Assembly: GCA_902578495.1 (NCBI GenBank) | Contig: CACHCY010000003.1 | Location: 1-32,336, forward strand | Origin: an uncultured SAR86 cluster bacterium | GTDB lineage: Bacteria > Pseudomonadota > Gammaproteobacteria > Magnimaribacterales > AG-339-G14 | Direction: 5' to 3' | DNA: 32,336 nucleotides | Part shown: positions 2,579-14,973 of the stretch, piece after piece | Position numbering within the stretch: position 1 is the stretch's first letter | Layout of the letters: the number at the start of each line of letters is the position of its first letter | Notes under the pieces: generated by a model | The model's input: only the letters and a program-made list of their open reading frames with translations | Told to the model about the DNA's origin: nothing | Databases searched by the model: none | Program-made: the position numbers and the translations under genes

Positions 2579-3268
2579 ATGAAGAAGTATGTTTTATTGG
2601 TTGAAGATGAGCCTGACTTAAATCAGACCGTTGCATTCAATTTAGACTCTGAAGGTTACTCAGTAGAGTCTGCTTTTAACGGCAAAGAAGCTCTTAAATT
2701 GATTGAAGAAAAAATACCAGATTTAATTTTACTCGATCTAATGCTTCCAGATATGTCTGGTCTTGAAATATGTAGAATTCTTCGATCCTCAAAAAAAACA
2801 AAGAACATTCCAATTATGATGGTAACTGCCAAAGGTGAGGAGATAGATAGAATTGTTGGTTTTGAGCTTGGTGCTGACGATTATATTGTAAAACCATTTA
2901 GCATTCGTGAATTTATGCTCAGAGTCGCCGCCATGCTAAAAAGGGCTGGTGATAAAATAAATAATGATGAAGAAAAATTAATTTTCGGCTCTCTTGAAAT
3001 TGATATTGCTGCACACAGAGTCAAGCTAAAAGACAAGGAAGTCCCTCTAACAGCTAAAGAATTTTCATTATTGCATTATTTAGTTGAGAGAATTGGAAGA
3101 GTTTCTACCAGGGATGCTTTGCTCGATGATGTTTGGGGTTATAACTGCGAAGTTACAACTAGAACTGTAGATACCCATGTAAAAAGACTAAGAGCAAAGT
3201 TAAGCGATGTTGGAAACAATATTGAAACTGTAAGAGGAGTAGGATATCGTTTTAATTCAGCATCCTAG
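2579..3268 (+). CDS. phoB: PhoB-family response regulator
   Basis: 229 aa OmpR/PhoB-class regulator. The receiver domain (about 1-120) has acidic residues E9/D10, phosphoacceptor D53 in LLDLMLPD, T83 and K105 in VKPFS. The C-terminal winged helix (about 130-227) contains VPLTAKEFSLL, TRTVDTHVKRLRAKL and ETVRGVGYRF. It lies 11 bp before a PhoR-type kinase and among phosphate genes, so phosphate control is well supported, although OmpR-family paralogs are hard to separate by sequence alone. It would bind 11-bp-spaced direct repeats such as those near 9890 and 10885. A weak AGGA at 2565-2568 could serve as ribosome binding site. No Pho box is evident in the 62 bp upstream. Confidence 0.85.
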   Translation: MKKYVLLVEDEPDLNQTVAFNLDSEGYSVESAFNGKEALKLIEEKIPDLILLDLMLPDMSGLEICRILRSSKKTKNIPIMMVTAKGEEIDRIVGFELGADDYIVKPFSIREFMLRVAAMLKRAGDKINNDEEKLIFGSLEIDIAAHRVKLKDKEVPLTAKEFSLLHYLVERIGRVSTRDALLDDVWGYNCEVTTRTVDTHVKRLRAKLSDVGNNIETVRGVGYRFNSAS

Positions 3269-3279
3269 TTGAATTAAAT

Positions 3280-5040
3280 ATGTCGGTTAGAGCAAAAATA
3301 TTTTTAATATCTTTCAGCCTGCTAGCGTTAGCATCTCTCGGGGGCGGTCTCTATATTCAAAGTCAACTTTCTACTTATTTAAATGACGATATAAATTCAA
3401 ATTTACAGAACCATGCAAAAATTGCTCAAAAACTATTTGTTGATGCTGGCTTAAATTACGAAAATGCTGATTTTTTAGCTGATGACCTTGGAGAGGCTTC
3501 TGGATTAAGAGTAACCTTGGTATCTAGTTCTGGACAAGTAATAGGAGATTCTGAAATTTCTAAACAGGATCTAGCATCTGTTGAAAATCATTCAAACCGA
3601 CCAGAAATTATTCAAGCAGTTAATCAAGGGTCAGGTTTATCCCAAAGATACTCCAATACAATTAATACAGATATGAGGTATTTAGCAGTAAAGATTCCTT
3701 TAGAGTCTTCAGAGGGTGTTGTTAGGGTAGCAGCTCCTCTGTCTCAAATAAATCAAGCATTGGCAAGGGTAAGATATACGGTTTTGGGTGCAGTTTTAGT
3801 AGGTTTTATTTTTGCAATTTTTGTTTCCTACTTCTCTTCTAATGTCATATTAGGATTTATAAAAGATTTTATTAATGAAGCTGATATTTCCTCTTCTAAA
3901 GATGACCAAGAACTTAGCGGTAATCAACAATATTCTCTTGAAACAGCCCAAAAGAATTTAAAGAAAGACCTTCAATTTCTTGCTAAGCAAAGAAAACAGT
4001 TCAGCTCAGTTTTAGAAAAAATGGGTCAAGGAGTACTGCTTATGAATAAAACTAATGAAGTTTTGTTCTATAACAAAACAATCAAAGAAGATTTCTGGCC
4101 TGAAATTGAAATTGGCTCTAAGTTTTTTTCAAACGTTAGTTATCCATCGTTTAAAAAATTTCTCAAGAAAGCTTGGGATAAGACAGACCACGCCGTTGAA
4201 ATAAATGGCCCTAAATCAATTGATTCCTCATACTTAATAAGCGCTAGAAGAGATAAAGCTAATGATGAAATCTTAGTTGTTTTTAATGATATTTCTAAAT
4301 TAAGAAGATTGGAACAAATGCGAGAGGACTTCATAGGAAATGTCTCACATGAGCTGAGAACACCAATATCAGTAATAAGGGCTAATGCTGAAACTTTATT
4401 ACACGGAAACTTTGTTAAGGATCCAAAAGCTTTAGTGTTTACAGAAGCAATTTTATCTCAATCGGAAAATATGACAGAAACAGTTTCTGAATTACTTAAA
4501 TTAAGTTCAATTGAAGCTGGAGAATTTGATTTGAATATGGGCAGACAAAACTTGAAATCTTTTATTGCAGGAATTTTAAAAAAGCACACCGATCATGCCT
4601 TAATAAAAAATATATCATTTGAGGTAGATATTGATGAAAACCTGGATGTATTAATTGACTCATCTGCTTTTGGAATAATAATGAGTAACTTTATTACAAA
4701 CGCTTTAAAACATTCGCCTGCAAGTTCTACCGTGATAATTAAAAATGATTTAACTGATGATTTTAATTCAAGACTGTCTGTAATTGATTCAGGACGTGGA
4801 ATTCCTAAAAAATATCGCCAAAGAGTTTTTGAAAGATTTTTCAGAGTTGATAGAGGAAGAGCCAAGCAATCCGGTGGAACTGGATTAGGATTGGCTATCT
4901 CTAAACACCTTGCCAGACTTATGGGTTACGAGATAGGCATGCAGCCAAACAAACCAAACGGCTGTAAGTTTTGGATAGAGATCAATTATTTATTGAACGA
5001 GGAAAAAGTTTCTTTAAACTCTGAACTTAATCCCGCGTAG
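3280..5040 (+). CDS. phoR: PhoR-family sensor histidine kinase with large periplasmic domain
   Basis: 586 aa membrane kinase. A first membrane helix at about 5-25 is followed by a periplasmic domain (about 28-165) resembling the extracytoplasmic PAS-like domain of PnpS/Bacillus PhoR, then a second helix (about 167-188), a cytoplasmic PAS region (about 240-340), HisKA with H357 in SHELRTP, and an ATPase domain with an N-box (NFITNALKHS), DSGRGIP and GGTGLGLAIS. This differs from E. coli PhoR, which has only a small periplasmic loop. It follows phoB by 11 bp, forming a two-gene operon. The last 55 bp overlap the 3' end of the convergent ppx gene. A related sensor with another ligand is possible; the gene neighbourhood favours phosphate. 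Confidence 0.82.
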   Translation: MSVRAKIFLISFSLLALASLGGGLYIQSQLSTYLNDDINSNLQNHAKIAQKLFVDAGLNYENADFLADDLGEASGLRVTLVSSSGQVIGDSEISKQDLASVENHSNRPEIIQAVNQGSGLSQRYSNTINTDMRYLAVKIPLESSEGVVRVAAPLSQINQALARVRYTVLGAVLVGFIFAIFVSYFSSNVILGFIKDFINEADISSSKDDQELSGNQQYSLETAQKNLKKDLQFLAKQRKQFSSVLEKMGQGVLLMNKTNEVLFYNKTIKEDFWPEIEIGSKFFSNVSYPSFKKFLKKAWDKTDHAVEINGPKSIDSSYLISARRDKANDEILVVFNDISKLRRLEQMREDFIGNVSHELRTPISVIRANAETLLHGNFVKDPKALVFTEAILSQSENMTETVSELLKLSSIEAGEFDLNMGRQNLKSFIAGILKKHTDHALIKNISFEVDIDENLDVLIDSSAFGIIMSNFITNALKHSPASSTVIIKNDLTDDFNSRLSVIDSGRGIPKKYRQRVFERFFRVDRGRAKQSGGTGLGLAISKHLARLMGYEIGMQPNKPNGCKFWIEINYLLNEEKVSLNSELNPA

Positions 5041-5915
5041 TTTTCATTTAAGTATCTATCCACTAGGGCATCAGAAATACTCCAAGATGCAGAGTGAAGA
5101 CTTGCAGTTGGAAAAAAATTCATGATTCTCAAAAAAATTTTACCAGCGCTCTCAATGATATCTGCTCTATCTTTTGAAAGTGAGAGTTTTGTTATCTTCT
5201 CTTCGTTACTCAATTTGAGTAAATTGTTCAAACATTTATCTAAATCTATGAGTGATATATCGTGTCCCTTATCTCTTGTGATAATTGAGATTAGTGATCT
5301 TATATTTCCTCCGACACCTACTATTTTTCTTATTGAAGATTTATCAAAAGAATTGAGATAATTTTCAAATTCATTCCACTCAGATAATCTATCTTTATCT
5401 AGGTATATTCGAACAGCACCAAGATTGAAAGATTTTGATGTCTTTATTTTATTTGAAGAATAAAAAAATTCTGTGCTTCCACCCCCAACATCAACAAACA
5501 AATGAGATCCGTCCTCAGGATATTTTTTTGTTAAGAATAAAAGTAAATCAGCTTCCTCTTCACCAGATAAAATTTTTAAATTAATATCAAAACTTTGATT
5601 TAAGAAATCACAAACCTCTTTACCGTTTCCAGCTGTCCTCATTGCAGAGGTTGCAAATCCACCAATAAATTTTACATTTTTTGACTCCAGCTGTTTTAAG
5701 AGGGCGCTTAGTTGATTTTCTATTTTTTTTATTGTCTTTTTCTTAATTTTGCCTTTATTAAAAACATCAGTTCCCAGCCTAATGGGTATCCTTTTGTATG
5801 TTTCAAGCTCTGGTTTAAGCGAAGCTTCATTTTTTATTATTCTGTACTGTTTGTACTTTAATGCATTTGATCCTAAGTCAAGACAGCCTACCCGAAATAA
5901 ATTTTTATTATTCAT
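4986..5915 (-). CDS. ppx: Ppx/GppA-family exopolyphosphatase (short form)
   Basis: 309 aa phosphatase of the actin-like ASKHA fold. Visible motifs are the N-terminal CLDLGSNALKYKQY phosphate-1 segment, FATSAMRTAGN, GEEEADLL, FVDVGGGSTEFF (about 140-151) and the adenosine-type VGVGGNIRSL loop. It lacks the C-terminal HD-like domain of the ~500 aa E. coli enzyme, as in the short Ppx group. It should remove terminal phosphates from polyphosphate or hydrolyse pppGpp. It follows ppk2 with an 8 bp overlap, so synthesis and breakdown of polyphosphate share an operon. Its 3' end runs 55 bp into the convergent phoR coding sequence, so part of the DNA is coding on both strands. Confidence 0.85.
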   Translation of the reverse strand: MNNKNLFRVGCLDLGSNALKYKQYRIIKNEASLKPELETYKRIPIRLGTDVFNKGKIKKKTIKKIENQLSALLKQLESKNVKFIGGFATSAMRTAGNGKEVCDFLNQSFDINLKILSGEEEADLLLFLTKKYPEDGSHLFVDVGGGSTEFFYSSNKIKTSKSFNLGAVRIYLDKDRLSEWNEFENYLNSFDKSSIRKIVGVGGNIRSLISIITRDKGHDISLIDLDKCLNNLLKLSNEEKITKLSLSKDRADIIESAGKIFLRIMNFFPTASLHSASWSISDALVDRYLNENYAGLSSEFKETFSSFNK

Positions 5916-6738
5916 CAGAAAAAGAACTTAGCACTTTGAACTGATCGTAAGATAAGTTTTCGAACTTTACGCCATTTATCTTGAGGTTATAAATATTCAT
6001 ACCTTTTGACCATTTTTTTGGTTTTGGGATATTTTTTTCAGGGTATTCAAATTTTTCTAAGATATATCTTAAGGAATTTAAAGAAGCTACCATTTTTGTA
6101 TTGGCATTTATTACTACCCATGGTGATTTTTCTGATGAAGTTGTAGCAAACATTTGATTTTTATAAAATGTAAAAGCATCCCATCTATCTGCAACTTTTA
6201 AGTCATTTTCGCTAAATTTCCAAAATATTAATGGGCTGTTTTTTCTTTTCTCAAACCTCTTTTTCTGGATGTCCTTTTTAACAGAAAGATATATTTTTAC
6301 TATTTCTATATTTTCTTTAGAAAATTCTTTTTCCCAAGACAATACATTTTTCATAAAGTATTTGTATTGTCTTTCAGAACAATAATTCATGGTTATTTCT
6401 GTTAGTGCTCGGGTATACCAAGATCTATCAAAAAAAACTATCTCACCAACATTTGGCATATGTTTTTCATATCGTGAAAACCAATGTTGGGATTCTCTTT
6501 TAGTTGGAATTCCCAACTTAACTAATCGAACATGTTCTGGTATCAAGTATTTAGATAAGACTGATATGCTTCCGGTCTTTCCAGCGGTATCTCTTCCTTC
6601 AAAGACAATAGCAATCTTCTTCTTTTCTTGAATCACCCATCTTTGTAATTTCAAAAACTCTGCTTGAAGTTTTCGTAACTCTCTACGATATAAATCAGGA
6701 TTAATTTGAGAATATTCAGCTATGTCATATTCAAGCAT
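5908..6738 (-). CDS. ppk2: Polyphosphate kinase 2 family protein
   Basis: 276 aa single-domain PPK2. The P-loop is FEGRDTAGKTG (about 47-57), with a T where many family members have G. Further motifs are GIPTKRESQHWFSRY, the Walker B-like VFFDRSWYTRA, and RWDAF in the lid region. The family transfers phosphate between polyphosphate and (d)NDP or NMP, so it may build polyphosphate or use it to make nucleotides; direction and nucleotide class cannot be read safely. It is the first gene of the minus-strand pair with ppx. Divergent pit starts 108 bp away, so the gap 6739-6846 must hold both promoters. I see no clear PhoB repeat there. Confidence 0.88.
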   Translation of the reverse strand: MLEYDIAEYSQINPDLYRRELRKLQAEFLKLQRWVIQEKKKIAIVFEGRDTAGKTGSISVLSKYLIPEHVRLVKLGIPTKRESQHWFSRYEKHMPNVGEIVFFDRSWYTRALTEITMNYCSERQYKYFMKNVLSWEKEFSKENIEIVKIYLSVKKDIQKKRFEKRKNSPLIFWKFSENDLKVADRWDAFTFYKNQMFATTSSEKSPWVVINANTKMVASLNSLRYILEKFEYPEKNIPKPKKWSKGMNIYNLKINGVKFENLSYDQFKVLSSFSDE

Positions 6739-6846
6739 TTAAAAACTCTTTTATGAAGATTTTGTGAATTTTAATTAAATCATCTTAAAAAGTTTAACTA
6801 AAGTAATAAATTCATATATCGTGCTACTACTTAAGTATTTTTATCA

Positions 6847-8097
6847 ATGGCTTTTGTTGGCATAGAAACTGAAATAATTATTTTAGCCTGCGTGTTTGGT
6901 TTTATCATGGCGTGGGGTATAGGTGCAAATGATGTCGCCAATGCATTTGGTACTTCGGTGGGATCTGGCGCCATAACGCTTAGAACAGCATTATTAATAG
7001 CTTGCATTTTTGAATTCGCTGGAGCTTATCTTGCCGGCGGCGAGGTAACAGATACCATTAGAAAGGGCATCATTGATGCTGAAGAGTTCACTGGAAAATC
7101 AGATGTTTTAGTTTTCGGGATGTTGTCAGCGTTATTAGCGGCTGGAACTTGGTTATTTTTAGCATCTGCTCTGGGATGGCCAGTTTCTACAACTCACTCT
7201 ATTGTTGGCGGGATTATAGGGTTCTCAATAATTGGACTTTCTTTTAATGCAGTCAACTGGCAAGCAGTTTCCAGTATTGCAACTACGTGGGTTTTATCTC
7301 CACTTTTATCAGGTTTACTGGCCTACTTTGTCTTTAAAAGTATTAAATTTTTAATTCTAGATACTGATAATCCTTTTTTAAATACTCTTAAATATAGTCC
7401 TATTTACCTTTTCTTTGTTGGTTTTGTGATTTCAATGTTAACTTTTTTGAAAGGTTTAAAGCACGTAGGAATTGATTTGAATTTTGAGTATGCATTCCTT
7501 CTCTCAGCTGCCTTTGGAATAATGCTTACTTTAGTGGGAATAATTCTTTTGAGAGCCAGCAACATCATGAAACAAAAAGATGCAAATATCGAATCATTTT
7601 TTGCGATTTTAGTCATATTTACTGCTTGCGCAATGGCATTTGCTCACGGTTCTAATGATGTAGCCAATGCAGTCGGACCGCTTGCAGCGGTAATCAATAC
7701 TGTTTCAGTAGAAAATTCAGTTAATAATCAGACCTCGATAACTTCTTGGATATTATTATTAGGGTCCATTGGGATAATTATTGGTCTTTTGACTATGGGC
7801 TTTAGAGTTATCGGAACCGTTGGGAAGGGGATAACCAAAATTACACCTTCTTCTGGGTTTGCAGCAGAATTGTCAGCTGCAACCATCGTTGTATTGAGTT
7901 CTAGTTATGGATTTCCCGTTTCAACAACCCACACATTAATTGGAGCAATCATTGGCATTGGGCTTGTTAATAGCTCAAAAAGTATGGACTGGTCAAAAGT
8001 GGTTCAAATTTTTTCAGGTTGGATAGTAACAATTCCTGTTGGGGGCTTTCTTTCAATCATTATATTTTGGATTTTTAAATCCATATATTCCTTTTAA
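6847..8097 (+). CDS. pit: PiT-family inorganic phosphate permease
   Basis: 416 aa integral membrane transporter with about 10-11 hydrophobic segments and the duplicated PiT signature: GANDVANAFGTSVGSGAI near residues 26-43 and AHGSNDVANAVGPLAAV near 265-281, each followed later by a GWPVSTTHSI- or GFPVSTTHTL-type loop. These permeases import phosphate (or metal phosphate) driven by an ion gradient. It sits between the polyphosphate genes and the arsenic genes; PiT permeases also admit arsenate. No pst or phoU genes are in the window. The stop TAA shares the 4 bp TTAA at 8094-8097 with the stop of the convergent prepilin peptidase gene. Confidence 0.93.
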   Translation: MAFVGIETEIIILACVFGFIMAWGIGANDVANAFGTSVGSGAITLRTALLIACIFEFAGAYLAGGEVTDTIRKGIIDAEEFTGKSDVLVFGMLSALLAAGTWLFLASALGWPVSTTHSIVGGIIGFSIIGLSFNAVNWQAVSSIATTWVLSPLLSGLLAYFVFKSIKFLILDTDNPFLNTLKYSPIYLFFVGFVISMLTFLKGLKHVGIDLNFEYAFLLSAAFGIMLTLVGIILLRASNIMKQKDANIESFFAILVIFTACAMAFAHGSNDVANAVGPLAAVINTVSVENSVNNQTSITSWILLLGSIGIIIGLLTMGFRVIGTVGKGITKITPSSGFAAELSAATIVVLSSSYGFPVSTTHTLIGAIIGIGLVNSSKSMDWSKVVQIFSGWIVTIPVGGFLSIIIFWIFKSIYSF

Positions 8098-8819
8098 ATA
8101 AAACTGAATGAGGATATTGAACCGATAGCCAATAAAGTTCCAAGAGGTACTTTATCTATTGGATTATTCATAAGACTTTTCAATACGAATATTACAATAC
8201 CTAAAGAGGAAGCAAGTAACAAAGTAAATGAAAACTCAATAGGGGAATGAAAGAAGCCCAAGCCAAATATTAAAAAAAGATCTCCGTTACCCAAAGTTTC
8301 TCTTTTCATAAGTCGGTCCATAATTTGTTTTGCAATAAAAACAGTCAAGGTCATTACCGATGCAAAAATGATATTCGTGAAACTCCCTTCAAAATATAGT
8401 GAAAAAAAGCTTATTAAAATAAAAAACAGCAAATAGATTTTTGGTATCAGAAAATACTTATAATCAAATAAGGCAATTGCGAATAAAAAGCTGAAAAATG
8501 GAATAGTCAAAAATAAATCTAGAGAATTATCAGACAAGATCAACAAACAAAAAATCAGCCCGAATAACAATTCAGATATTAAGTGATCAATCTTGATTGG
8601 CTTTTTGCAATATCTGCATTTACCTTTTAAAAATAGAAAACTAAAAATAGGGAATAAATCTAGCCAAGATAATTCTTTTTTACAGTGATCGCATTGAGAA
8701 CGTAAAAATCTTTTATTGCTGTCTAAGATTAAATTATCGTCTCTGGCAATTCTTTGATTTGTAGTTTCAAAATAACTCCCAACAATACTTCCAAAGAAAA
8801 AGAATAAGAATAAAGTCAC
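8094..8819 (-). CDS. gspO: Prepilin peptidase/N-methyltransferase (GspO/PilD)
   Basis: 241 aa polytopic membrane protease. The N-terminal methylase-type domain has the two CxxC pairs (CDHC near 43-46 and CRYC near 68-71). The aspartyl protease part has D in LFDYKYFLIP and the second Asp in the GNGD segment of a GxGD motif. It would cleave and N-methylate the leaders of GspG, I, J and K encoded 12-14 kb away, so its presence here ties the secretion genes to the phosphate island. The start ATG overlaps the arsC stop by 4 bp, so it is the last gene of the aqpS-arsC-gspO operon. It is at the short end for the family. Confidence 0.9.
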   Translation of the reverse strand: MTLFLFFFFGSIVGSYFETTNQRIARDDNLILDSNKRFLRSQCDHCKKELSWLDLFPIFSFLFLKGKCRYCKKPIKIDHLISELLFGLIFCLLILSDNSLDLFLTIPFFSFLFAIALFDYKYFLIPKIYLLFFILISFFSLYFEGSFTNIIFASVMTLTVFIAKQIMDRLMKRETLGNGDLFLIFGLGFFHSPIEFSFTLLLASSLGIVIFVLKSLMNNPIDKVPLGTLLAIGSISSFSFI

Positions 8820-9196
8820 ACTAATAACTCAGAGATAATTTTTGATTTAATCATATCTCGAATTTCATCGAATTCCTCTTCCTCTAAAAACTTTGGATCA
8901 GGAATATTCCAATCAATATTTTTAATATTAGGTACATAAGGGCATACGTCGCCGCAACCCATTGTTATTACGTAATCAAAAGTATGATCTTCGAAGAAAT
9001 CAATTTTTTTTGGCTCACCAGAATGAGTGATATTGATTCTACTCAGAGATTGAATTGCTTTTGGATTTATCTTTTTAGCTGGATTTGAGCCGGCTGAATA
9101 AGCAAGAATTTTATGCGAATAGAGATTCTTGCAAATTGCTTCAGCTATTTGACTTCTACAGGCATTCTCCACACACAGAAATAAGACACTAATCAT
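8816..9196 (-). CDS. arsC: Arsenate reductase, LMW-phosphatase (thioredoxin-linked) type
   Basis: 126 aa with the start chosen here. The phosphate loop C8-x5-R14 opens the protein (FLCVENACRSQ), and MGCGDVCP supplies the resolving cysteines C81 and C85. The W-x3-DP segment near the end matches the family. It reduces arsenate to arsenite with a Cys relay. An upstream GTG at 9232 is in frame, but it would add 12 residues before the family's usual N-terminus and overlap the aquaporin gene by 44 bp; the ATG at 9196 gives an 8 bp overlap. It is co-transcribed with the aquaglyceroporin upstream and the prepilin peptidase downstream. No arsR is nearby. Confidence 0.86.
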   Translation of the reverse strand: MISVLFLCVENACRSQIAEAICKNLYSHKILAYSAGSNPAKKINPKAIQSLSRINITHSGEPKKIDFFEDHTFDYVITMGCGDVCPYVPNIKNIDWNIPDPKFLEEEEFDEIRDMIKSKIISELLV

Positions 9197-9830
9197 AAAT
9201 TCTTGTATAAACGAAGTAGGCAACAAAGCCACCTATTAGCTGAGCCAAAATGAAGTAAAAAATATATTCCGGATTAATTCCTGTAAATGTATTGGTTAGA
9301 GATCTAGCTATAGATACCGCAGGATTTGCAAAGGATGTGGAAGAGGTAAACCAGTATCCTGCTCCAATGTAAAATCCAACAGCATAAGGAGTAGAAAATT
9401 TAGAATTCTTCCTGACTAGCAAAATAGTCATAAGTAATCCGAAAGTAGCAATTATTTCACTGAGGAAGATATTTAAGCCATCTCTATCCTTTGTAGAAAT
9501 TTCTACAAAGCTAAGATCAAACATGATATTGGCTAATATCACTCCTAGAATAGCACCTGAAATCTGAGCAAGAAGGTAAAGAATAAATTGCTTAAACGGT
9601 AATTCTTTCAACATAAAGAACATCGTTGAAACGACAGGATTAAAATGACCTCCAGAAATGGTTCCAAACATTAAAATTAGAACAATCAATCCCAGGACAG
9701 TTGCTAAGGAATTAGCTAACAAAATAATTCCTTGATTAGTTGTTAGATTTTCAGCCATGATGCCGGAGCCCACAATGATCATGAGTAAAAACATTGTTCC
9801 AATAAATTCTGAAAAAACTTTTCTAAGCAT
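9189..9830 (-). CDS. aqpS: Aquaglyceroporin, AqpS-like (arsenite efflux channel)
   Basis: 213 aa MIP-family channel with six membrane helices. The first half-helix motif is NPV (N64-V66) instead of NPA; the second is NPA (N169-A171). The residue after the second motif is V172, where classical aquaporins carry the selectivity-filter Arg, so the pore should be wider and less water-selective. Together with the directly overlapping arsC this supports an AqpS-like role: arsenite made by ArsC leaves through the channel. It is the first gene of the operon and is divergent from the secreted protein gene at 9919. A TATATT near 9842-9847 on this strand could be its -10 element. A glycerol or urea channel is the alternative. 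Confidence 0.83.
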   Translation of the reverse strand: MLRKVFSEFIGTMFLLMIIVGSGIMAENLTTNQGIILLANSLATVLGLIVLILMFGTISGGHFNPVVSTMFFMLKELPFKQFILYLLAQISGAILGVILANIMFDLSFVEISTKDRDGLNIFLSEIIATFGLLMTILLVRKNSKFSTPYAVGFYIGAGYWFTSSTSFANPAVSIARSLTNTFTGINPEYIFYFILAQLIGGFVAYFVYTRIYD

Positions 9831-9880
9831 TTTTGTACCTTAATATATTTGACAGAGATTTTGATCCAATATTTTTCATC

Positions 9881-9900
9881 TTCACATTAATGTCACATTA
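9881..9900 (+). promoter_or_regulatory. PhoB-box-like direct repeat
   Basis: TTCACATTA (9881-9889) and GTCACATTA (9892-9900) match at 8 of 9 positions and lie exactly 11 bp apart, the helical spacing used by PhoB. The second copy contains TGTCA, the core of the E. coli half-site; the first has TTCA. It lies 18 bp before the GTG start at 9919, and a weak CAAAAT (9906-9911) could serve as -10. Confidence 0.5.
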
Positions 9901-9918
9901 CGTCTTCAAAATGCTCTC

Positions 9919-10866
9919 GTGAAAAATTTCATATTATGTGTTTTAGTGATAAGCAGCTTTAATTTAGCTTCTCTCGGAACTCTAGACGAACGCTTAGACC
10001 CGATTGTGATCAAAGAATACGGAACAAGGCTAGCTCAACCGACACTTTCTCATACTGAGATCAAGCCAGGTGCCTATTTAATTGAATGCGACACCATCTG
10101 CGGCAATTCTCTGTTAGTTTATGGCAAAGAAGGCGCCATTTTGATCAACTCAATGTTGGCCAAAATGTTGCCTTGGCTTCGCAAGGAAATAAGAGATATA
10201 TCAGGTATCAACAATATAAAAATTCTTATCAGCTCTAACCCTCATTTTTGGAACACCAACGCAAACGGTCTGTTCGGTGGAATGATGGATTTTATGATCT
10301 CTCATCAAAATACTCGCGATAGAATTCTACAAGACTCAACCATCGGTGATTTAAATATTCTCCCAAACTATTTTCAACAAAGTCATGTGGATAATGCAGG
10401 TGCAAGAATAACTTTTGAAGACAAGGTAAGAATTAATTTTAATAATGAAAAAATTGATCTTATGCATATGGAGAAGGCTTCTACCGATGGAGACTTATTG
10501 GTTCATTTCACTGAAAAAAATGTAATTTTTATAGGAGACATAGCCAAAAGTAATGGATTGCCTTTTGTGAACAATAATGCGGGTGGATCCGTTGAAGGAA
10601 CTCTAGCTGCTTTAAAAAAAGCTCTTGATTTAGGTAATGAAAACACAGTTTTCATTCCGAGCTTAGGACAGGCTATGTCTTTTAAACAACTCAAGCGATA
10701 CATCAATAAGCTAGACAAGATTTATCTAAGAATTGATTCTCTCAAGAAAGAGGGTCTTTCTGTCTTAGAAATACTCAACGACAGGGAAATTAAAAATCAA
10801 TTAATTACATTTAAAGATAACTTCATGTCCAGTAGAGAAACCTACGTAAAACAACACTTTAATTAA
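9919..10866 (+). CDS. Secreted metallo-beta-lactamase-fold protein lacking metal ligands
   Basis: 315 aa with an apparent signal peptide (about 1-19). The order of motifs follows MBL-fold hydrolases, but the metal residues are largely gone. The HxHxDH site reads N107-P-H109-F-W111-N112; the AHTDGD motif reads ASTDGD with S188 for His; the PGHG loop reads PSLG with L249 for His. Asp207 in IGDI and the GGS segment (222-224) are kept. The frame is open and well formed, so this looks like a conserved pseudoenzyme, perhaps a binding or scaffold protein, and not a decaying gene. The start is GTG; the only nearby ATG (9911) ends after three codons. A PhoB-like repeat lies directly upstream, suggesting induction in phosphate limitation. 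Confidence 0.75.
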   Translation: MKNFILCVLVISSFNLASLGTLDERLDPIVIKEYGTRLAQPTLSHTEIKPGAYLIECDTICGNSLLVYGKEGAILINSMLAKMLPWLRKEIRDISGINNIKILISSNPHFWNTNANGLFGGMMDFMISHQNTRDRILQDSTIGDLNILPNYFQQSHVDNAGARITFEDKVRINFNNEKIDLMHMEKASTDGDLLVHFTEKNVIFIGDIAKSNGLPFVNNNAGGSVEGTLAALKKALDLGNENTVFIPSLGQAMSFKQLKRYINKLDKIYLRIDSLKKEGLSVLEILNDREIKNQLITFKDNFMSSRETYVKQHFN

Positions 10867-10875
10867 TTTACATTT

Positions 10876-10893
10876 TTGACACATTTCTGTCAC
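10876..10893 (+). promoter_or_regulatory. PhoB-box-like direct repeat
   Basis: TTGACAC (10876-10882) and CTGTCAC (10887-10893) form a 7-4-7 direct repeat at 11 bp spacing. The second half-site matches the E. coli Pho box CTGTCAT/C fully and the first at 5 of 7 positions. TATTTT (10901-10906) is a possible -10 element, giving a leader of about 60 nt before the lipoprotein start at 10973. Confidence 0.62.
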
Positions 10894-10972
10894 TTCATCT
10901 TATTTTTACAGCACAATTCTGACAAATTAGATTTGTATTATTTCATGGTCGATTTATTAACGGAGTTTTAAC

Positions 10973-12403
10973 ATGACAAAAAATAAAATTTTTAATTTAT
11001 TTCTTTTAACTTCTGTTATAGGTCTAGTCATTAGTTGCGGGGGAAGCGATAACGATAGTTCCTCTTCTGCTTCAAGTTCATCAAGTTCTTCGACTCCAGC
11101 AGCAGCATCTTGCCCCACAGTTACGAATGCTGCTGGAGCTTCTGTTGTTTCAGGAACAGATGCAGCTGGTGCTTTGACTTGTACTTATACAGGAACTTAC
11201 AACGATAGTTTTCAAATGAAAGCATCTGCTACACATATTTTAAGTGGCCCAGTTAAAATTGGTGACGATACTACTTCACCAACCCTAACTATTGATGCGG
11301 GATCTACTATCAGGGGAGAATCTGGAGAAGACTCTTTGAATATTCTTAGGGGAGCAAAGATTCTTGCAAAAGGAACTGTCTCAAATCCTATTATCATGAC
11401 TTCTGCTAGCGATGACGGAACTTTAGCTGCTGATGCTAATGCTCAATGGGGCGGATTGCAGATAATGGGTAAGGCTACACAAAATTGTACTGATGCAGAA
11501 AAAAATGCAAGCGGAATTTGTGAAAGATCTGCAGAAGGGTTCGATGCTGTACCAGTTCAATACGGCGGTAACGATGATAACGACGATTCTGGTGAATTAT
11601 CCTATGTAGTCGTTAAATATGCAGGTTACCAATTTAATCAGGAAAACGAACTTAACGGTATAGCGTTTTATGCGGTTGGTGATCAAACAGATGTAAATTA
11701 CATCAGAGTTCACAACAATAAAGATGACGGTATTGAGTTTTTTGGTGGGACAGTTAACTTCAAATACGCTTACCTTACCGGTAACCAGGACGATTCGTTT
11801 GACTTCACAAACGGTTGGAGAGGAAAGGCTCAATGGGTAATTATTGACCAAAACACTCCGGATCCTGCTACCGCTACGGGTAACGAGCCGGATAACGGAA
11901 TGGAATTCGATAGCAACAGTAAGGCTCCTAACGCCACACCTAGGTCTAATCCGACTATATCTAATTTCTTAGTAATCGGTAACAGTGCAAAACACGGTGA
12001 GCTCGTTCACCTAAGAGCCGGAACTTCAGCTACTTTGGTTAATGGAATTATTGTGGATTCATCAAACCTAGGACCTTGCATTGAGATTGATGATGCCGAG
12101 ACTTTTACTGCTGCAGGTTCAGCTTCTTCTACTACACTCAGAGCTGTCTCAGTAATGATAGATTGCGGTGATAACAAGTTCAGTGGAGAGTCTTCTGGTG
12201 ATGCATTTAGTACAGCTGCTTGGGCTACTGCGCAAGGAATCACAGAAGGTACTAATTCGTTAACTGGATATGTAAACGGTGCTACAGAGGCATCTGTGAC
12301 AGTTAATACTGCGTTATTAGGGTCTTTCTTTGATGTACCAACGGAGATCGGTGCAGTTCCATCTACTGGTTCTGACTGGACTGCCGTTTGGTCTGATATT
12401 TAA
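10973..12403 (+). CDS. Surface lipoprotein, ElpS-like candidate
   Basis: 476 aa. The lipoprotein signal ends in VISC with the acylated Cys at residue 22, followed by a Ser/Ala-rich linker (about 23-47). The remaining ~430 residues are rich in Gly, Asn, Asp and short beta segments (WGGLQIMG, DGIEFFGG, GNQDDSFDF), which suggests a right-handed beta-helix or similar repeat fold; I see no enzyme motif. A GGAG at 10962-10965 is well placed before the ATG. A PhoB-like box lies upstream and a strong terminator downstream. Its position beside a T2SS recalls Caulobacter ElpS, a phosphate-starvation lipoprotein released with T2SS help. That link rests on context, not on a sequence comparison. Confidence 0.7.
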   Translation: MTKNKIFNLFLLTSVIGLVISCGGSDNDSSSSASSSSSSSTPAAASCPTVTNAAGASVVSGTDAAGALTCTYTGTYNDSFQMKASATHILSGPVKIGDDTTSPTLTIDAGSTIRGESGEDSLNILRGAKILAKGTVSNPIIMTSASDDGTLAADANAQWGGLQIMGKATQNCTDAEKNASGICERSAEGFDAVPVQYGGNDDNDDSGELSYVVVKYAGYQFNQENELNGIAFYAVGDQTDVNYIRVHNNKDDGIEFFGGTVNFKYAYLTGNQDDSFDFTNGWRGKAQWVIIDQNTPDPATATGNEPDNGMEFDSNSKAPNATPRSNPTISNFLVIGNSAKHGELVHLRAGTSATLVNGIIVDSSNLGPCIEIDDAETFTAAGSASSTTLRAVSVMIDCGDNKFSGESSGDAFSTAAWATAQGITEGTNSLTGYVNGATEASVTVNTALLGSFFDVPTEIGAVPSTGSDWTAVWSDI

Positions 12404-12419
12404 GACTAAAACAATTGAT

Positions 12420-12459
12420 AAATTGAGCTACCACCTTAAAATGGTAGCTCAATTTTTTT
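12420..12459 (+). terminator. Strong intrinsic terminator
   Basis: Perfect 14 bp stem, AAATTGAGCTACCA (12420-12433) with TGGTAGCTCAATTT (12442-12455), an 8 nt loop, and a T-run at 12453-12459. It lies 17 bp after the lipoprotein stop. The T-run is directly followed by GGAG (12460-12463), the ribosome binding site of the next gene. Confidence 0.92.
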
Positions 12460-12471
12460 GGAGCTAAAAAA

Positions 12472-14973
12472 ATGAAACATCCTTCCCTGATATCTTTATT
12501 TATTTTCTACTCTGCTCTCTCTTTTACACAAGATACTGGCGACTTTGAAGAATTAGTAGTTTCGGGAATTTTTATCCCAGACGAAAAACGAACAACTTCT
12601 GAAATTTCAAATGTCATTGATTCGACTCAAATGTCTGAGGCAGGCGATAGCAATATAGCTGACTCTTTGAAAAGAGTAACCGGTCTTAGTTTAGTTGAAG
12701 GCAAATACGTTTACGTTAGGGGTTTGGGCGATAGATATTCAACTGCTTTGCTTGATGGTTCTTCGATAGCATCACCAGAACCATTGAGTCGAGTTGTCCC
12801 TCTGGACTTATTTCCGACTAATATCTTAGAAAGCGTCTTAGTTCAAAAAACTTTTTCTCCAGAGTACCCTGGAAATTTTGGGGGAGGCGTGGTGAATTTA
12901 AGAACGGTTGCAGTTCCCGAACAAGCATTCACTGATTTCTCTTTCTCGTTAGGCGGTGACAACCTAACCACTGGTAAAAGTTTCTTAACAGCTCCAAATT
13001 ATGATTTAGATATTTTTGGCATTGGTTCGGAAGATAGAGCGATACCCAATGCATACTTAAAAGCACAATCGGAAGGTAAAATAATCAGAAGAAATAATAA
13101 TTTTTTCTCAGGCGGCTTATCTCCAGTAGAACTTCAAGAAATTGGTGTTGCACTTGCAGCTAACATGCCTACAAGAACAAAATCTTCTTCCTTAGATCCT
13201 GATTTTTCTTTGTCTTTGTCGACTGGTGATTCGTTTGATATCGATAGAGGAGATATGGGGTTAATCTTTGCGTTAAATTATTCAAACGCATGGGAATCTC
13301 AAGAAAAAATGCGTAACTCAAACTCTTGGAATTCAGATGCTGAAGATCCTGAGGACGTTTTAATAGTTCTTGATAGAGAAACGTTTACCAATTCAACCAA
13401 CACAATAAATCTATCTTCTCTTTTGGGTCTGGGATTTAATATAGATGACGATCACACAATAAAATTAACCAGTTTTTTAACTCGAAAATCTTCAGACACA
13501 GTATCTTTTATTTACAGCGATTTAGCTCTTTCTAATTTTCCAATGGAGAAAACTTATGTTGAGTGGGTTGAAAGACAAGTCTGGACCAACCAAGCTTCAG
13601 GAGAACACTTTTGGGGAGATTTGCAATTCAATTGGCGTACATCCTTTGCAGACAGCACCAGAGAATCCCCTAATAACCTCGATACACAATATGAAGTCTA
13701 CGAAGATGGCACGAGATATTTTGGTAACAGAAATGATAAATTTAGATTAAAGTTTTTTGATCTTCAAGACTCTGTTGTTGATATAGGGGCAGATATCAAA
13801 TACTTTATTATCACTGGCGATGTCAGCATGGATTTTAAAGCTGGAGCTTCGTATTATTTCAAAGAAAGAGATAATCAAATTTCTAATTTTGAATTTGATC
13901 GCTCTCCAACTGCTACGACCTTATTTGATGAGACATTTCTTACTCAGCCTTTAACGGAGATTTTTGCAGAACAAAACATCGGTCCAGACACATGGGAAAT
14001 AAACGAGATTACTGGAGCAGCTGATTACTACAAAGCAGATTCAGAAATATTAGCTTTTTACGCTGGTATCGATGGTCAATTTACAGATTCTTTAAGATTG
14101 TCAATCGGATTTAGGTATGAAGATTCCGACATTAATGTTTCAAACTTTAACAAATACACTAAAGCTGAAAGTGATAGAAGCGATTTAGCGCTAGATAAAG
14201 TTTTGCCTGCAATAACACTTACTCAAACCTTAGATAATAATATGCAAATAAGATTGGGTGTGAGTGAGACCGTGGTGAGGCCTAATTTTAGAGAATTAGC
14301 CCAGTCCGTTTTCTTTAATCCCGCCACTAACAGATCTTTCGTGGGAAATCCTGACTTAAAAATTACCGAAATTACCAATTTAGATTTTAGATACGAATGG
14401 TATTTTGGTGACGGTGGTCAGTATTTTTCTGCAGGATTGTTTGCAAAAGATCTTACAAATCCTATCGAGCAAGGAATTCAACCAGGGACTTTTTATAGAG
14501 AGTTTTCAAACGTAGATGAAGGTCAAATGACCGGTGCAGAATTTGAAATTTTTTATGATTTTTTCCCATTCTTCATAAGAAGCAATCTAACCTTTATGAA
14601 TTCAGAGGTTGATACAACATCTCAGTTTGTTCAAGAAGAAAGAAGCCTGCAAGGCCAGTCAGACTTCTTAGGTAACTTTACTTTCGGCTACGAAACGGAT
14701 GCACACAAAGTTATTCTTGCATATAACTACACAGGAGAACGTATATCTGAATTAGCTCCAATTAAGGGTGCACCTGCTTATTATGAGCAAGGTACAGGAA
14801 TTCTAGATTTTAATTACACTGCTTATATCTATAACGGAAACAATGATCTTGAAATAGGGTTTAAGCTTGGTAATTTAACGGGTGAAAAATATGAAGTTTT
14901 TCAATTGGATGAAATGGTAGAACAATACGAATATCCAACATCATATTCATTCAGTATTAAAGTTAATTTCTAA
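12472..14973 (+). CDS. TonB-dependent outer membrane receptor
   Basis: 833 aa. A signal peptide (about 1-19) is followed by a TonB-box-like EELVVSG (26-32), a plug domain (about 40-150, including YVYVRGLGDRYSTALLDG and FGGGVVNLRT), and a 22-strand-type barrel ending in Phe833. It takes up a bulky or scarce substrate across the outer membrane with TonB energy; the ligand cannot be read from sequence. Its position between a Pho-boxed lipoprotein and the T2SS suggests a phosphorus-containing substrate or a substrate released by secreted hydrolases, but this is inference. I see no separate promoter in the 68 bp upstream, so transcription may depend on read-through of the terminator there. Confidence 0.93.
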   Translation: MKHPSLISLFIFYSALSFTQDTGDFEELVVSGIFIPDEKRTTSEISNVIDSTQMSEAGDSNIADSLKRVTGLSLVEGKYVYVRGLGDRYSTALLDGSSIASPEPLSRVVPLDLFPTNILESVLVQKTFSPEYPGNFGGGVVNLRTVAVPEQAFTDFSFSLGGDNLTTGKSFLTAPNYDLDIFGIGSEDRAIPNAYLKAQSEGKIIRRNNNFFSGGLSPVELQEIGVALAANMPTRTKSSSLDPDFSLSLSTGDSFDIDRGDMGLIFALNYSNAWESQEKMRNSNSWNSDAEDPEDVLIVLDRETFTNSTNTINLSSLLGLGFNIDDDHTIKLTSFLTRKSSDTVSFIYSDLALSNFPMEKTYVEWVERQVWTNQASGEHFWGDLQFNWRTSFADSTRESPNNLDTQYEVYEDGTRYFGNRNDKFRLKFFDLQDSVVDIGADIKYFIITGDVSMDFKAGASYYFKERDNQISNFEFDRSPTATTLFDETFLTQPLTEIFAEQNIGPDTWEINEITGAADYYKADSEILAFYAGIDGQFTDSLRLSIGFRYEDSDINVSNFNKYTKAESDRSDLALDKVLPAITLTQTLDNNMQIRLGVSETVVRPNFRELAQSVFFNPATNRSFVGNPDLKITEITNLDFRYEWYFGDGGQYFSAGLFAKDLTNPIEQGIQPGTFYREFSNVDEGQMTGAEFEIFYDFFPFFIRSNLTFMNSEVDTTSQFVQEERSLQGQSDFLGNFTFGYETDAHKVILAYNYTGERISELAPIKGAPAYYEQGTGILDFNYTAYIYNGNNDLEIGFKLGNLTGEKYEVFQLDEMVEQYEYPTSYSFSIKVNF

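Follow-up and report, generated by a model that had tools for sequence, protein, structure and literature searches.

Metallo-beta-lactamase (MBL)-fold proteins are commonly annotated as hydrolases from the fold alone. In the class B2 enzymes (CphA and SFH-1), an asparagine replaces the first histidine of the HxHxDH motif, which becomes NxHxDR, while D120, C221 and H263 bind one zinc ion. An MBL superfamily protein of Burkholderia cenocepacia (8D2Z) carries SHYHAVR in place of HxHxDH. INTS9 is described as an MBL/beta-CASP pseudoenzyme whose residues are unable to coordinate catalytic metals (PMC7980224). An LMWP-type ArsC and an adjacent aquaporin are postulated as an arsenic resistance module in SAR11, where ArsC becomes more frequent as surface phosphate falls (PMC6426599). 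AqpS is regarded as the exit for arsenite in Sinorhizobium (PMC4435449, PMC6205960, PMC4531530) and is treated likewise in Frankia (PMC4531530).

The window, i.e. the whole stretch of 32,336 nucleotides analysed here, belongs to a SAR86 assembly (G000) of 1.18 Mb in 27 contigs that is 88% complete. Its plus-strand gene at 9919-10866 (GTG start, TAA stop), open over 315 amino acids, encodes a protein with a predicted MBL fold and an altered metal site, referred to below as pseudo-MBL. We consider it rather probable that this protein is a selectively maintained pseudoenzyme, acting as a Pho-controlled periplasmic binder and not as a hydrolase, within the arsenate/phosphate response. INTS9 differs from it: it is not secreted, acts as a subunit in eukaryotic RNA processing and has a beta-CASP domain. 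The gene pair of the ArsC-AqpS module of Sinorhizobium, Frankia and SAR11, the last in a phosphate-limited setting, adjoins pseudo-MBL. None of the literature matches listed, by their titles and abstract starts, connects a pseudoenzyme of the MBL fold with ArsC-AqpS or with phosphate starvation in SAR86; PMC4435449, PMC6205960 and PMC6426599 do not use the word "lactamase" in their main texts, and it is found once, concerning chromate resistance, in PMC4531530.

Predicted fold and former metal site

Pseudo-MBL has a hydrophobic N-terminus that resembles a signal peptide by eye, and may be exported. Sequence models recognise it faintly: Pfam PF00753 (Lactamase_B) matches it with a weak tail of 13.8 bits, below the gathering cut-off of 22.7 that an intact paralogue encoded in this genome passes (56.6 bits), while the NCBIfam class B core domain gives 30.1 bits (4.7e-7) against a cut-off of 100 and the class B2 model 15.6 bits against 240. 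The AlphaFold2 model, built from 19 sequences, has a pLDDT of 83.1 and a pTM of 0.84. In a comparison with solved structures it could be aligned to 720 of 1000 chains with a Z of at least 8, and the best 50 of these 720 are MBL-fold proteins, in part going by their titles. The best solved match is 6UXU (VIA Z 26.2, 266 residues aligned, 2.9 A); 8D2Z, which is also the best profile match (2e-21), follows at Z 24.6 (260 aligned, 3.1 A), and class B1 enzymes reach Z of about 21-23. Chance resemblance to MBLs is ruled out by the fold and profile matches together, and a gene on the wrong strand by the reverse frame of 9919-10866, which is full of stops.

The intact paralogue carries the motifs INTHWHFDHADGN, GPAHTTGD, TGDL and PGHG, to which ISSNPHFWNTNAN, EKASTDGD, IGDI and PSLG of pseudo-MBL are aligned. 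Five of the seven metal-ligand positions are replaced, with loss of four of the five metal-binding histidines and one of the two aspartates. Going along the plus strand, N107 (codon 10237-10239) stands for the first histidine of HxHxDH in relatives, W111 and N112 (10249-10254) for its Asp-His pair, S188 (10480-10482) for the third-motif histidine and L249 (10663-10665) for the last histidine, while H109 (10243-10245) and D207 (10537-10539) are kept. The preliminary description, made from the window's letters, had placed its substitutions at N107, S188, L249 and W111-N112, and the alignment to the paralogue puts all of these at ligand positions.

Pseudo-MBL thus does not carry the residues of a metal-dependent MBL hydrolase, i.e. 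HxHxDH, the third-motif histidine, the aspartate and the last histidine together. It can not be placed in class B2 either, as the Asn and His are present but W111, D207 and L249 take the places of D120, C221 and H263, and N112 follows W111; what we take to be class B2 entries are among its best PDB sequence matches. The motif of 8D2Z lacks the Asp-His pair like that of pseudo-MBL, so part of the second metal site is missing there too, but 8D2Z, unlike pseudo-MBL, keeps the first two histidines and the third-motif histidine.

The changes extend beyond the ligands. Asparagine replaces aspartate in pseudo-MBL at 77 and 218, where the aspartate is invariant in the 14 intact SAR86 rows of the alignment. 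Altogether, 12 of 289 mature positions are invariant within the five pseudoenzymes and invariant but different in the 14 intact relatives, and these include four of the seven ligand positions (hypergeometric P 5.7e-5, with the relatedness of the rows ignored). A C-terminal P(F/Y)(V/I)(N/D)xxxGG block is common to pseudo-MBL and its intact relatives from SAR86 and other Gammaproteobacteria. The protein would be an exported descendant of a SAR86-lineage hydrolase of the MBL family whose site was intact; it would have lost the dinuclear metal site, and metal-dependent hydrolysis with it, and may bind through a remodelled, less charged pocket formed by N107, H109, W111, N112, S188, D207 and the asparagines at 77 and 218. 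We infer a binding or scaffolding role of this kind, as the preliminary description also did.

A tentative alternative is that a metal or metalloid centre has been rebuilt in the old pocket from C57, C61, H109, D207 and perhaps H156, which would make pseudo-MBL a metalloprotein, enzymatic or not. These five residues are each invariant in all five orthologues. The mature protein has no cysteines besides C57 and C61 (C57-x3-C61, codons 10087-10101), which stand where intact SAR86 relatives of the subfamily have Gly-Gly or Ala-Gly and have no cysteine counterpart at either position in the other 50 aligned loci; their loop presumably matches, by sequence position, the active-site flap of class B1 enzymes. 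Periplasmic cysteines four residues apart may, however, simply form a disulfide. The removal of the metal site stated in the preliminary description accordingly holds for the canonical site, while the invariant cysteines, H109, H156 and D207 leave room for a rebuilt one.

Phosphate genes, Pho-like boxes and the ArsC-aquaporin pair

The left part of the window contains phoB-like and phoR-like two-component genes (2579-5040, plus strand), identified by NCBIfam profile matches that stay below the cut-offs: the PhoB-like gene scores 262 bits against 296 with its best PhoB model, TIGR02154, and the kinase 260 against 400 with PnpS and 226 against 334 with PhoR. They are followed, at 4986-8097 and by Pfam matches, by Ppx and PPK2 on the minus strand and a PHO4/Pit-type phosphate transporter on the plus strand. 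To the right of pseudo-MBL lie a lipoprotein-like gene (10973-12403, plus strand; lipobox by eye), present in all nine genomes of the genus, a TonB-dependent receptor and a type II secretion operon.

Both strands of the window were scanned with a Pho-box matrix whose weights were assumed from a consensus. The best site (10876-10893, plus strand, intergenic, score 18.1) precedes the lipoprotein-like gene, and the second best, TCTTCACATTAATGTCAC (9879-9896, plus strand, intergenic, score 12.6), precedes pseudo-MBL. Across 30 random windows, the top score has a mean of 13.7 and about 1.5 sites per window reach 12.6, so the site at 10876-10893 stands out and that at 9879-9896 is weak by score alone. 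The latter is conserved, with small changes, upstream of all five orthologues. A possible -10 element, CAAAAT (9907-9912, plus strand), placed 6 bp ahead of the window's start codon, was found by eye in the orthologue alignment; in the five orthologues, CAAAAT or CACAAT lies 10 bp past the box and 6-7 bp before the start codon. This spacing suggests a PhoB-type promoter with a nearly leaderless transcript. The Pho-like box of the preliminary description is a candidate that draws more on its conservation in five orthologues than on its score, which is no better than chance, while the phosphate-starvation setting proposed there gains support from the phoBR-like genes, PPK2, the Pit-type transporter and the conserved box. 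A stretch like TTGACACATTCTTGTAAC, resembling the site at 10876-10893, also precedes the lipoprotein-like counterpart in G002 (L091), a genome of the genus without pseudo-MBL.

The most informative neighbours, absent from the preliminary description, are a MIP-family aquaporin (9189-9830, minus strand; PF00230, 2.6e-26), divergent from the pseudo-MBL gene, and an LMWP-type arsenate reductase ArsC (8816-9232, minus strand), identified from Pfam, NCBIfam and PDB profile matches. As listed, the two frames overlap by 44 bases (9189-9232); arsC more likely starts from the internal ATG at 9196, and its overlap with the aquaporin frame would then shrink to 8 bases. In the PDB, ArsC matches arsenate reductase best (6.6e-22), ahead of a low molecular weight phosphatase family entry (2.5e-8) and tyrosine phosphatase entries (8.9e-6 or worse); in NCBIfam, arsenate reductase models are also the best but below their cut-offs (61-66 bits vs 158-215). 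An LMWP-type ArsC adjoining a MIP-family channel is the composition of the ArsC-AqpS module.

The aquaporin-arsC pair is adjacent in four genomes of the genus (G000, G004, G007 and G008). The aquaporin and pseudo-MBL are both present in five of the nine genus genomes and both absent from the other four; an ArsC match occurs in four of the five pseudo-MBL genomes, and the contig of the fifth, G006, breaks off within the aquaporin gene. In the four cassette-free genomes, gspO adjoins the lipoprotein-like gene (the junction sequence was read in G002), which is in each case 71-72% identical to that of the window. As these four genomes are alike, a single deletion or one to two gains may account for the pattern, and co-presence is weak evidence for a shared function. 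The pair also occurs outside the genus, in three other SAR86 genera (G009, G010 and G014), in a similar Pho neighbourhood and without pseudo-MBL alongside, and thus does not need it. In G010 (L089:7034-12828), pstS (148.7 bits, cut-off 206.6) comes directly after aquaporin and arsC, and then pstC, pstA and pstB, all above their cut-offs, an arrangement that ties the arsenate pair to phosphate uptake. No ACR3-type arsenite pump was found in any of the 16 SAR86 genomes searched (the control was positive in 7 of 14 genomes), and tblastn detected neither the window's ArsC nor its aquaporin beside the relatives at loci L007-L031 and L035-L062, which have flanks of some 1.5 kb at most.

On the reading preferred here, in which pseudo-MBL is a pseudoenzyme that binds, its most probable role is that of a periplasmic binding protein made under phosphate scarcity. 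Phosphate limitation would induce its expression from the PhoB-type promoter, and together with ArsC and the aquaporin it would form a small cassette against arsenate entering by phosphate uptake: ArsC would reduce arsenate to arsenite, arsenite would leave through the aquaporin channel into the periplasm, and pseudo-MBL would bind its putative ligand there. The link of pseudo-MBL to arsenic rests on its position and on shared presence, which involves few evolutionary events. If the link is real, an exported protein joins a detoxification module proposed for abundant ocean bacteria of phosphate-poor water, and the periplasmic fate of arsenite becomes testable.

A narrower version, which we regard as doubtful, makes pseudo-MBL a dedicated periplasmic arsenic handler, the third component of the ArsC-aquaporin system, in which a hydrolase's zinc site would have been exchanged for the thiol pair C57/C61, capturing or reporting exiting arsenite during phosphate starvation. 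As(III) binding by these two cysteines is a guess. The AioX family comprises periplasmic proteins sensing arsenic oxyanions, going by the title and opening of the abstract of PMC5908839; the words cysteine, Cys108, disulfide and covalent are absent from that source, and it thus lends no support to a thiol mechanism at C57/C61. Were arsenite the ligand, an MBL-fold protein would have turned from a metalloenzyme into a metalloid binder.

Orthologues, intact relatives and selection

The order is represented by 203 genomes, of which many are incomplete (40 reach 90% completeness with 5% contamination) and 30 contain a match to pseudo-MBL at 1e-20. The pseudoenzyme form is present in five of these 203, all within the window's genus, of which nine genomes were available. 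The altered site is common to all five orthologues, down to 45% identity, the only variation being L or I at 249. Of the 55 loci read at the motif, five are pseudoenzymes, 46 are intact, three carry an HSNGDH variant and one (L031) is degenerate in another manner; HxHxDH, the third-motif histidine and the last histidine are thus retained in 46 of the 50 others. The motif alignment left out L025-L027 and L030 (below the cut), the 19-row alignment L010, L013 and L017, and the tree L003, L010, L024 and L031; the second copies of G004 and G007 are the order matches left out of the motif reading.

In the wider class, 36 of 369 genomes drawn from a larger group have matches, the window's own included, and the motif is intact in all 19 loci (L044-L062) that were read among the other 35. 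A scan of named genomes with pseudo-MBL returned three loci, all from SAR86 (95%, 92% and 63% identity). Searching viral_contigs with the alignment of the five orthologues gave 43 pattern matches, none of them a relative. One phage record matches 71% of the pseudo-MBL query at 22.7%.

The intact relatives from SAR86 and other Gammaproteobacteria belong to the same fold family, are of similar length and share 23-32% identity with pseudo-MBL, but keep all the metal ligands, five of seven of which the pseudoenzymes lose while gaining C57/C61. One of them, L002, the intact paralogue, resembles the SoxH-type quinoprotein relay metallohydrolases (TIGR04559, 82.8 bits, below the cut-off of 280). In the tree, the pseudoenzymes fall together with the SAR86 relatives at 98/93 support, and the intact ones form their sister group (84/80). 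A duplication within the SAR86 lineage likely gave rise to the pseudoenzymes; their stem branch is long, at 2.49 changes per column, which makes the age of the split uncertain. The substitutions are conserved and not a local decay, a point on which the preliminary description had made its proposal depend: the orthologues lack the histidines, which a distinct paralogue and more distant relatives keep. Local decay or sequencing error is ruled out, as five genomes agree and no copy has a stop.

The intact paralogue (G000:C2), which the same genome encodes, is 31% identical to pseudo-MBL, has every ligand intact and lies on another contig. Together with the conserved switch at the metal site, it allows a direct before-and-after comparison. 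It is conceivable, by analogy with catalytic INTS11 and non-catalytic INTS9 of the Integrator complex, that pseudo-MBL serves as a pseudoenzyme partner, a regulator or scaffold, of this paralogue. Similar second matches occur in G004 and G007 (motif unread), but none in two other pseudoenzyme-bearing genomes, G006 (71% complete) and G008 (87% complete), and the location of the two G000 genes on different contigs also speaks against a partnership, which we hold to be improbable.

The loops of the former site are more invariant in the orthologues than the remainder of the protein (41 of 68 against 64 of 221 positions, Fisher P 5.5e-6, in segments chosen by the authors). Taken with the invariance of H109, S188 and D207, this could be read as hydrolysis that persists without metal and relies on S188, H109 and D207 or on the Asn-rich pocket; yet the pocket is strongly altered by W111 and by the missing aspartates at 77 and 218, and no MBL-fold hydrolase is known to us to work in this way, which makes this quite improbable.

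Pseudo-MBL is under purifying selection in the three orthologue pairs with unsaturated dS: dN/dS is 0.137, 0.195 and 0.290 by NG86 and 0.128, 0.197 and 0.311 by YN00, pairs with G006 and G008 being left out as dS was saturated or failed. For the intact paralogue dN/dS is 0.04-0.055, several times lower, which indicates weaker constraint on pseudo-MBL. Pseudo-MBL is also among the fastest-evolving genes of the stretch, at 45.5% identity in G008 and 63% in G006, where GspC-E reach 82-99% and only GspO (38%, G008) is lower. These rates and the patchy presence in the genus could suggest a decaying gene on its way out, a very improbable reading that is largely refuted by the dN/dS well below 1, the absence of internal stops from all five copies, the same new residues at the ligand positions across 45% identity and the conserved upstream element. 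A pseudoenzyme with a retained fold, as first proposed in the preliminary description, is instead supported by the fold prediction, the shared substitutions and the purifying selection.

L031 (G033; L094:8150-9184) is a 344-aa MBL-fold protein of another SAR86 genus that is degenerate in a different way, with NxFxDH for HxHxDH, Met for the third-motif histidine, Asn for the ligand aspartate and the last histidine kept. When 17 window proteins were used as queries in the 16 kb around it, only pseudo-MBL itself matched. Weak matches with the same frame length as L031 occur in G025 and G035. In the window, positions 8094-14973 show a steep divergence gradient against L063 and L064, as in a variable island, with pseudo-MBL, the aquaporin, the lipoprotein-like gene and the TonB receptor at 45-88% identity across G008 and G006.
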